Shown piece after piece: positions 10,620 through 18,663 of a stretch of 51,484 nt of DNA (positions are counted from its first letter, which is position 1; the number at the start of each line of letters is the position of its first letter). The notes under the pieces are model-generated. The model searched no databases, had not been told where the DNA came from, and worked only from the letters and a program-made list of their open reading frames with translations. Position numbers and translations under genes: made by a program. Origin of the DNA: Sphaerobacteraceae bacterium (GTDB taxonomy: Bacteria > Chloroflexota > Chloroflexia > Thermomicrobiales > Thermomicrobiaceae); assembly GCA_007695115.1 (NCBI GenBank), contig REEK01000118.1:1-51484 (forward strand), in the 5' to 3' direction.

Positions 10620-11222
10620 CTATCGGAGATGCCGGACCGTGTACTCAAGTCCACGCTCGAACGGGATCGTTTGCGTCACAACGTCTTCGCGCTGCCGGAT
10701 CAGACTGAGCAGATCCTCGCAATCGTGCGACGTCACGTTGTCGGTTAGCACCACACCACCCGGCCGGACGCGCTCGATCACGTTGTCGAAGTGACGTGGG
10801 TAGTCGTCCTTCTCAGCATCGAGGAAGACCAGGTCGATTGAATCAAACCGGGCGGCGATCTCGCTTCCATCCCCGGTTTCGATGATTGCGGTATCCGCAA
10901 CTCCTGCCTCAACCAGATTAGCATTCGCCTGAGACGCCCGTTCCGGCAGAATTTCCGATCCGACGATCCGTCCACCGTACTCGCGTGCAGCCAGAGCCAG
11001 CCAGATCGTCGAGTAACCGGTCGAAGAGCCGATCTCCACGATCAGACCCGGCTGGAGAGATCGAATGAGCGAGAAGAGAAAAAGTCCGGTCGGTGCGGTA
11101 ACGTTGCGAGTACGTTCGCTAACCGGCAGGCCGCGTTCTCGCTGAGTCGCGTCATCGTCGCGCAATCGTTCCAAGACTTCCAGCGCAGGCGACTGGGCGA
11201 TCCAGTGTTCGGGATACTTCAT
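10620..11222 (-). CDS. Class I SAM-dependent O-methyltransferase (catechol OMT type)
   Basis: A 200-residue O-methyltransferase of the caffeoyl-CoA/catechol family. Motif I is VEIGSSTGYSTIWLA, followed by GSEILPERASQANANL and VFLDAEKDDYPRHFD, with the metal- and substrate-contacting acidic residues, then RPGGVVLTDNV. I start at the ATG at 11222 because AGGGAAGG lies eight bases ahead; the frame stays open 44 codons further but that part has no family match. The product acts in the cytoplasm on an unknown catechol-like substrate. Its ribosome binding site is complementary to the C-rich tract of the predicted small RNA at 18264-18358. Confidence 0.85.
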   Translation of the reverse strand: MKYPEHWIAQSPALEVLERLRDDDATQRERGLPVSERTRNVTAPTGLFLFSLIRSLQPGLIVEIGSSTGYSTIWLALAAREYGGRIVGSEILPERASQANANLVEAGVADTAIIETGDGSEIAARFDSIDLVFLDAEKDDYPRHFDNVIERVRPGGVVLTDNVTSHDCEDLLSLIRQREDVVTQTIPFERGLEYTVRHLR

Positions 11223-11392
11223 TGTGGCACCTTCCCTGATACGATTCGCTGAACCTGTGCGAACGTTCGCCGAGAAACCAGAGTATAATTCGCGGATTAC
11301 CGGCAGTATTCTTGCGATCTCTAACCAGAGCCCGCCGGGCCAGACGCGAACCATACCGCCGGCACAGAGTCCCGGCCGACGAAGGAGCTTGG

Positions 11393-16931: not shown

Positions 16932-18131
16932 GTGGCGAATCTTCGTGAAGTCGAACGCGTAATTCAGATGTCCCAGCCCCGGGGTCCGGGGTCAGACGAA
17001 GAACGGCAGATGGCAAGCTTTGTCGCCGGGCGACTGGAGCGACTTGGCGTGCCGCACACGCAGATCGATTTCCGAACTGTACGCGGCACGGCCACGCTGT
17101 ATCTCGTGCCGTTTCTGGGAATTCTGGTGAGCATCGGACTGGCGTGGTTCTACCCGCTCGCCGGGTTAATCGGCTCCACGATCTTCGCGCTCATCGCGGT
17201 TCTGGAAGCGACCAACCGGCCGCTCATTTCCCGCATTTTCCGTCTGGACAAAAGCCAGAACGTTCTCGGTCTCATCCCGCATCAACCACCCGAGGGCTTC
17301 GAGGATGCCGATCCACTCCGACAGGTCGTCCTGATTGCGCCACTGGACAGCCCGCGTCTTGGCTGGCTGGATGGCCGGACAATGCGGAATTCGATCCGGG
17401 GGCTGACGCTGCTGGCACTCTTCAGCGTGATGGCGATTCCATTGATGATTGCCGCCTGGCTGTTCCTGGAAGAAGAGCTCCTGCTCTTCCTGGCGGGAAT
17501 TCCCGCATTCATCGTATTCCTCTCGCTGTTCTTCATCATGCAGCGGGATCTTGCTGGGAAAGCCGTACCCGGACGAAACAGCAATGGATCAGGTATCGCG
17601 GCAATGCTGGCGATGGCCGAAGATCTGATGCGACACCCACCGGTCGGCGTGGAGACGCTGCTGGTGTTCACCGGTGCATCGCAATCCGGTTCCGCCGGGA
17701 TGACGAATTTCCTGGGGGAGAACGAGTTCAATCCCGAGACGACCTACTTCATTAGTCTGGAATCTGTGGGACGTGGCCCGATCTGCTTCACTCGTGCCGA
17801 AGGTCCGATCTTCTCCCTGCAGTCATCACCAGGCATGGTACATATTGCCGGAGAGATTGCACTGTCTCACCCGGAACGTCTGATGCGTCCGATCGTTCAC
17901 CGCGGCATCCCAACCGAGCAGTATGCGGCGCTGATCCGTGGCTACCAGGCGATGACCATCATGGGACATCCAGACCCGAAGGAATCAACGGCGCCACCGG
18001 AAGCCGTGGCCGGCGACGAGATCGATCCCTATGAGATCGACAGCGCATGCCTGCTGGTGCACGGTATTATCCGCCGTCTCGACGATGAAGCGGTCTCCGG
18101 GAACGTTCTAGGTATGGATTACCCTGACTGA
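16932..18131 (+). CDS. Membrane M28-fold protein lacking zinc ligands (pseudo-peptidase)
   Basis: A 399-residue protein with the layout of M28 aminopeptidases. It begins with a helical RGPGSDEERQMASFVAGRLERLG cap-like segment, then QNVLGLIP and VVLIAPLDS, where active enzymes have a His-x-Asp-Ser. Here the histidine is Pro137. GRNSNGSGIAAML replaces GxxDNxSGxA, so the bridging aspartate is Ser. TGASQSGSAG replaces the Glu-Glu motif. Four membrane spans are inserted, two near 56-91 and two in the middle. The zinc site is therefore lost, and a non-enzymatic role is likely. The start is a GTG at 16932 with GGGGGATGG ten bases ahead; the frame is open 35 codons further. Partner unknown. Confidence 0.7.
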   Translation: MANLREVERVIQMSQPRGPGSDEERQMASFVAGRLERLGVPHTQIDFRTVRGTATLYLVPFLGILVSIGLAWFYPLAGLIGSTIFALIAVLEATNRPLISRIFRLDKSQNVLGLIPHQPPEGFEDADPLRQVVLIAPLDSPRLGWLDGRTMRNSIRGLTLLALFSVMAIPLMIAAWLFLEEELLLFLAGIPAFIVFLSLFFIMQRDLAGKAVPGRNSNGSGIAAMLAMAEDLMRHPPVGVETLLVFTGASQSGSAGMTNFLGENEFNPETTYFISLESVGRGPICFTRAEGPIFSLQSSPGMVHIAGEIALSHPERLMRPIVHRGIPTEQYAALIRGYQAMTIMGHPDPKESTAPPEAVAGDEIDPYEIDSACLLVHGIIRRLDDEAVSGNVLGMDYPD

Positions 18132-18228: not shown

Positions 18229-18257
18229 TTGACAGGCTTATGTAAACCTGATAAAAA
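18229..18257 (+). promoter_or_regulatory. Near-consensus sigma-70 promoter with overlapping tandem dyads
   Basis: TTGACA (18229-18234) is a perfect -35 box. After exactly 17 bases comes TAAAAA (18252-18257) as -10. The spacer is an imperfect palindrome, CAGGcTTAtgTAAaCCTG (18233-18250), and a similar unit beginning CAGGTTAT lies exactly 20 bases upstream (18213), with an 11-bp perfect core GTTATCATAAC. Two dyads two helical turns apart, one between the promoter boxes, suggest repressor sites. The promoter lies in the most AT-rich stretch seen in this window. Transcription would begin near 18264. Confidence 0.7.
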
Positions 18258-18263
18258 TAAGTA

Positions 18264-18358
18264 TCGGAGCGTAGCCGCCCTGCTACGTTTCGAGACCCAA
18301 TCCCTTCCCTTCCCTTGACGCGGAGCGCATTCGTCCCCCAGCGCTCCGCGTCGCTTTT
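18264..18358 (+). ncRNA. Candidate C-rich small RNA, about 95 nucleotides
   Basis: A self-contained transcription unit with no ORF: the promoter above, then a terminator ending at 18358. The predicted RNA starts with a 6-bp hairpin (CGTAGC 18270-18275 with GCTACG 18282-18287, loop CGCCCT). It continues with a single-stranded tract of three CCCTT repeats (18302-18316), and ends in a 12-bp terminator stem whose loop contains CCCCC. Pyrimidine tracts of this kind are known from small RNAs that pair with Shine-Dalgarno sequences. Alternatively the unit is the attenuated leader of chaB, which starts 92 bases later. Supported by sequence layout only. Confidence 0.55.
18317..18358 (+). terminator. 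Strong intrinsic terminator
   Basis: GACGCGGAGCGC (18317-18328) and GCGCTCCGCGTC (18341-18352) form a perfect 12-bp GC-rich stem around the loop ATTCGTCCCCCA, followed by GCTTTT (18353-18358). It stands 92 bases before the chaB start and so ends a transcript that contains no gene. Confidence 0.85.
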
Positions 18359-18450: not shown

Positions 18451-18663
18451 ATGCCGTACAACAAACGCTCGGAACTGCCGGATCAGGTAAAGGACAACGT
18501 CCCGCCACACGCGCAGGACATCTACAAGGAAGCGTTCAACAACGCGATCGATCAGTACGATGGCGACGAGGAACGTGCCCACGCTACTGCATGGGCAGCC
18601 GTGAAGCAGAAGTACGAGAAGGATGAAGACTCCGGACGCTGGAAGCGCAAGGACAACGACTAG
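18451..18663 (+). CDS. chaB: ChaB family protein
   Basis: A complete 70-residue ChaB-domain protein: MPYNKRSELPDQVKDNVPPHAQDIY is split by the family pattern 'P..vr..LP..AqeiY..Afn.A...y' and ends in ATAWAAVKQKYEK. The family was named as a regulator of the E. coli cation antiporter ChaA, but its biochemical role is unclear; ChaB homologues are often single genes in other phyla. AGGA six bases ahead of the ATG is a good ribosome binding site. Its TAG stop is shared base for base, on the other strand, with the stop of the convergent MFS gene. Confidence 0.88.
   Translation: MPYNKRSELPDQVKDNVPPHAQDIYKEAFNNAIDQYDGDEERAHATAWAAVKQKYEKDEDSGRWKRKDND

Follow-up and report, generated by a model that had tools for sequence, protein, structure and literature searches.

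A conserved, C-rich candidate small RNA gene of the Thermomicrobiaceae/Sphaerobacter family

The locus and its conservation

Upstream of chaB in a contig from a Sphaerobacteraceae bacterium (REEK01000118.1 of assembly GCA_007695115.1, positions 1 to 51,484; this 51,484-nucleotide stretch is called the window below) lies an element at 18264-18358 of the forward strand that has the layout of a small RNA gene and is conserved in most genomes of the host family. A reading of the DNA letters without database searches (the sequence-only reading) had described a TTGACA-N17-TAAAAA promoter, a 5' hairpin, a C-rich unpaired tract, a perfect 12-bp stem and a CCCCC loop, and direct reading and folding find all of these features where they had been placed. 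The 5' end of the RNA is predicted at about 18264. The parts of the locus, all on the forward strand, are as follows.

18229 to 18257: promoter, with TTGACA at 18229-18234, a 17-nt spacer and TAAAAA at 18252-18257 (direct reading)
18264 to 18293: 5' hairpin of 12 bp with loop CGCCCU (folding, compensatory changes)
18294 to 18315: C-rich tract holding CCCTTCCCTTCCCTT, the proposed seed, unpaired in every species folded
18296 to 18317: invariant stretch CCCAATCCCTTCCCTTCCCTTG, identical in 18 genomes
18316 to 18358: predicted terminator, a 13-bp hairpin with loop AUUCGUCCCCCA and a short U tail (folding)
18451 to 18663: chaB, the downstream neighbor, outside the small RNA gene (Pfam ChaB, E 1.2e-24)

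The promoter is of the extended -10 kind, with TG placed 1 nt upstream of the -10 hexamer. The hairpin of the terminator (18316-18353) includes the perfect 12-bp GACGCGGAGCGC/GCGCUCCGCGUC stem, carries CCCCC in its loop and is followed by CUUUUA, so that the T-run in the window is only four long and begins 1 nt past the stem; in genera g3 and g6 the hairpin is mostly followed by 5-7 T. It went unreported by a simple terminator scan because its loop exceeds the length that the scan permits. Against dinucleotide shuffles the folding z-score is -8.0, and none of 200 shuffles was as stable.

A DNA search of 101 relatives, 21 of which make up the host family (f1, Thermomicrobiaceae/Sphaerobacter, with Sphaerobacter, Thermomicrobium and Thermalbibacter as named members), found the element in 18 of the 21 family genomes and in six genera, at E values from 1e-63 to 4e-12. 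The sequence-only reading had put forward a covariance search among relatives as a check, and in these 18 genomes both stems and the C-rich tract are kept, not lost; the three family genomes without the element are incomplete assemblies, 62-87% complete. The most conserved part is CCCAATCCCTTCCCTTCCCTTG, 22 consecutive columns of the 18-sequence alignment without a substitution, in which the threefold CCCUU repeat and its linkers are invariant alike. When the complement of the tract was sought with one mismatch allowed, it was found in 14 of 14 good-quality family genomes, and the site within the element was perfect in each.

The stems are conserved in a different manner. Few letters of the 5' hairpin are common between genera, yet the stem is retained: 94% of its cells are paired, and three of its five outer pairs show compensatory changes, with column pair 3/35 occurring as C-G, G-C and U-A. 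For both stems together, 97.6% of alignment cells form standard pairs, compared with 31-52% when the alignment is slid, and double-sided changes fill 17 cells where shuffles average 4.9 and none of 500 reaches 17 (these counts are of sequences, uncorrected for the family tree, and not of independent events). Folded singly, each species tested gives a hairpin, about 22 unpaired bases and a second hairpin. In nearly every species both hairpins end in a C-rich apical loop, the 5' loop of genome G008 being the exception; most relatives have CCCCC in their 5' loop. The terminator hairpin is rich in G+C in all 18 carriers.

A sigma-70-type promoter precedes the element at nearly the same distance in 18 of 18 carriers, with a spacing of 17-18 nt and a best score of 8-10 out of 12, a score of 8 being reached by 4.4% of random 60-mers. 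Its spacer contains TTATGTAAA in the window (18235-18251), and five genera (relatives L003-L019) keep this motif as TTATGTCAA; genus g6 carries TTCTGTCGA or the inverse TCGACAGAA in its place. To judge from the sequence, the spacer motif resembles an operator embedded in the promoter.

The genes around the element vary from genus to genus, and the next gene may stand on either strand. No chaB was found in genera g3, g4 and g6, all of which retain the small RNA, and no conserved open reading frame (ORF) was seen within the element. Since the element persists through changes of neighbor and the loss of chaB, it is best seen as an independent small RNA gene; variable flanks and the absence of chaB in places make it neither a leader of chaB nor the 3' untranslated region (3' UTR) of any one gene. 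Its own promoter, predicted terminator, lack of a conserved ORF and independence of neighbors are those of a stand-alone, trans-encoded small RNA. The earlier proposal of a small RNA gene with its own promoter and terminator is thus strongly supported by sequence conservation, compensatory changes, promoter conservation and neighbor change.

Sibling elements and known small RNAs

Searches with a covariance model derived from the 18 carriers and with a sequence pattern, in which a sample of the organism's own genome was included, located further elements of the same design there and in Sphaerobacter and others. In addition to the primary copy, the model finds such siblings in contig 5 of the own genome and in genomes G001, G008 and G010. 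The contig 5 sibling reads CCGGGCGTCTATCCCAACGCCC AAACCCAATCCCTTCCCTCCTG ACGCCCCGGTTCCCCCACCGGGGCGT and is conserved in two sister genomes. Upstream of it (L125:4880-4960) stands GTAACC...GGATTATC, with GGATTGTC in the sister genomes, a putative promoter that resembles the type used by alternative (extracytoplasmic function, ECF) sigma factors; the main copy, by contrast, has a sigma-70-type promoter. The pattern search adds two tandem elements behind two csbD genes, both in the own genome (L174, contig 45) and in genome G002 (L180, contig 76). Each csbD gene is followed by a C-rich hairpin loop with TCCCTTCCCC and then by a terminator, the stems being nearly identical; these elements are candidate 3'-UTR-derived small RNAs. 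What the siblings keep is C-richness and not the exact repeat, nor do they keep the four G3 tracts of the template strand.

Several other matches were set aside. G031, which belongs to a different family of the same order, has an element for which 40 relatives show no conservation, so that the class is not established beyond the family, and the evidence for it there is weak. The exact tract also occurs in records from Acidobacteria, Bacteroidetes and Bathyarchaeota, in each case lacking the surrounding hairpins, and these occurrences are attributed to chance. Many weak matches to the covariance model or the pattern proved to be coding DNA or a tRNA end.

Neither the window nor the surroundings of the element contain an Rfam match at threshold. 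On the element's strand the closest family is sX13 (RF02232), whose model gives 17.4 bits and E 0.18 where the gathering score is 50. The LhrC model has no match at the gathering score or at E up to 10, and 6C is unlisted at E up to 5 in four carriers and up to 10 in the window. The Rfam scans likewise gave no match to RsaE/RoxS or other UCCC small RNAs; the RsaE/RoxS type has a shorter seed than the tract found here. Neither Rfam nor the open-licence papers searched describe a conserved small RNA family of the base-pairing type in the Thermomicrobia or the wider Chloroflexota, which agrees with the sequence-only reading that no small RNA of this class was known from the phylum. With no match in Rfam or the literature, the element appears to represent an RNA family that is new, while its functional kind is a known one: it would work like LhrC, sX13 and 6C. 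Two species have a separate, well conserved and apparently structured noncoding region (GTTAGAGATAGTGGGTGCAGTCGA ... CTAGACACCCGGCGA.AACGCTGGTAGACTGCGCC) on the minus strand (L060:850-990 and L061:850-990), ahead of the gene for a secreted protein of the DUF4815 type; it too matches no bacterial Rfam family.

LhrC of Listeria monocytogenes, which blocks the Shine-Dalgarno region independently of Hfq, has CU-rich motifs in a 5' loop, a single-stranded linker and a terminator loop and exists in several copies per genome (PMC4132741). The likeness to the present element, whose own CU-rich motifs occupy the corresponding three positions, is one of architecture only. In the Thermomicrobiaceae, which belong to a different phylum, the linker is 22 nt long, invariant and built on three CCCTT repeats, and the copies in the own genome have diverged, whereas the LhrC set consists of five close homologs. 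In Xanthomonas sX13, C4/C5 loop motifs require G-rich motifs near the starts of targets, and action is Hfq-independent (PMC3771888); sX13 differs in folding into three hairpins and in lacking an extended, single-stranded linker rich in C. Among the Firmicutes, RsaE/RoxS and other UCCC small RNAs (named in PMC4132741, PMC5419742) direct a UCCC seed to Shine-Dalgarno regions. The actinobacterial 6C, or B11, is cited in PMC12395582 as using the same kind of motif (Mai et al. 2019). The present element resembles 6C in its C-rich hairpin loops, the possibility of multiple targets, and the Hfq-less, high G+C genomes in which it is found. 6C is not known to have a conserved CCCUU linker.

The C-rich tract and its possible targets

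Two hairpins flanking an invariant, unpaired tract form the pattern expected of a base-pairing small RNA. The element would be transcribed from its own promoter to its own terminator hairpin, as we infer from the conserved sequence, to yield a trans-acting RNA of about 95 nt that exposes three C-rich elements: the 5' loop, the unpaired linker and the terminator loop. The invariant linker would be the main seed, pairing with G-rich sequences that lie mostly in Shine-Dalgarno regions; such pairing would keep ribosomes from starting and so repress the mRNA. Its action may be independent of Hfq, for no Hfq gene scored above the curated cut-off in any of the 21 family genomes, while control genomes, among them E. 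coli and B. subtilis, were positive. By analogy with the RNAs of Listeria, Xanthomonas and mycobacteria, the most likely action is the turning down of genes at their ribosome binding sites. This whole reading, a stand-alone, trans-acting small RNA that represses mRNAs through a C-rich seed at Shine-Dalgarno regions, is considered probable.

The target side was surveyed at 1598 ORF starts, called by a simple script in three genomes (976 genes in a first set, then 622 new ones). Complements of the tract of at least 8 nt lie before 33 starts, as against 5 in the same number of internal coding controls, and those of at least 9 nt before 16 starts and in no control. Several results weigh against a specific role for the tract at these sites. 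Shuffled tracts of the same composition average 26 matches of at least 8 nt and 7 of at least 9 nt, and 26 of 300 shuffles reach the observed 16; matches of 7-8 nt in start regions are about as frequent for shuffled tracts as for the real one. The surplus of 9-14-nt matches that the first 976 genes showed did not recur in the 622 new genes, a pre-specified test, and no target was conserved across genera among the few ortholog pairs compared. Start regions are purine-rich, and many C/U-rich RNAs would therefore be able to bind there.

The sequence-only reading had proposed an anti-Shine-Dalgarno RNA, with target prediction as a check. The architecture and the enrichment of complements before starts, relative to internal positions, make such pairing plausible as a capability; a specificity of the tract does not emerge, its enrichment not being clearly above that of shuffled tracts. 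The three targets that had been named fare in the same way. GGGAAGG or GAAGGGA sites do exist before the genes at 11222 and 1982 and before fgd (from positions 11230, 1986 and 3114, respectively), and since shuffled tracts do nearly as well, they do not count as specific evidence.

Some individual complements deserve mention in their own right. The best predicted start regions include those of G005_173, with a 14-nt site, and G000_186, with an 11-nt site. In the own genome (contigs 5 and 64), stretches of 9-11 nt complementary to the tract lie at the ribosome binding sites of two enolase-superfamily (MR_MLE_C) genes and a mannonate-dehydratase-like gene; genes of these kinds rank among its best matches. 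Sugar-acid catabolism may be regarded as a weak lead to a target theme, weak because the own genome holds 24 matches of the MR_MLE_C domain family. In two Sphaerobacter-type genomes (L063:834-855 and L062:946-967), a beta-lactamase-fold gene is preceded, at a distance of about 240 nt, by a perfect 22-nt complement of the small RNA that takes in part of the terminator stem, and a 27-nt complement with mismatches lies upstream of a secreted-protein gene in Thermomicrobium-type genomes; both kinds sit about 170-260 nt from start codons.

A rather unlikely alternative accepts the conserved small RNA and takes its C-rich tract as the site of an RNA-binding protein, whether as decoy or cofactor site, in place of an mRNA seed. 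The invariant tract could equally well be explained in this way: the CCCUU repeat does not vary even in its linkers, and start regions offer shuffled tracts nearly as much pairing. Set against this, both hairpin loops are C-rich, a trait shared with base-pairing small RNAs such as LhrC and sX13, and the siblings have C-richness but not the exact repeat, a pattern that fits G-rich targets better than a single protein site.

Other accounts of the locus and wider meaning

In the window chaB begins 93 nt beyond the element on the same strand, and it follows closely in G001 and G008 as well; this proximity could suggest a cis-acting leader or attenuator whose hairpin stops transcription before chaB until a signal relieves it. 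Such a role is very improbable, being contradicted by the distribution: the element is retained in genera with no detected chaB and next to downstream genes that are unrelated or lie on the opposite strand. Conservation also peaks in the unpaired tract, and folding predicts no antiterminator that would compete. It is just as improbable that the conserved unit is the DNA itself, in the form of the template-strand G-quadruplex motif GGGAAGGGAAGGGATTGGG. Its four G3 tracts are read directly and are invariant in 18 genomes, yet a quadruplex would need neither invariant 2-3-nt loops, nor flanking hairpins with compensatory changes, nor a promoter, and the siblings do not keep the tracts. A 3'-UTR hairpin of the upstream mRNA (a 434-aa ORF ending at 18131) with an accidental promoter, suggested by the shared strand in the window and by the csbD siblings that do occupy 3' regions, is most unlikely given a promoter at fixed distance in 18 of 18 carriers and an upstream gene that varies or points the other way.

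The reading of a trans-acting small RNA with a C-rich seed can be carried a step further, to a tentative view that is less likely than not. The RNA and its diverged siblings, the csbD 3' hairpins included, might together constitute a family-wide, Hfq-free translational brake in the Thermomicrobia, in which simultaneous pairing with many ribosome binding sites would have kept the 22-nt seed unchanged across six genera. Sphaerobacter, Thermomicrobium and Thermalbibacter are named hosts in which the small RNA could be tested. If the reading is true, C-rich, Hfq-free small RNAs directed at Shine-Dalgarno regions would have arisen in yet another phylum, thermophiles included.
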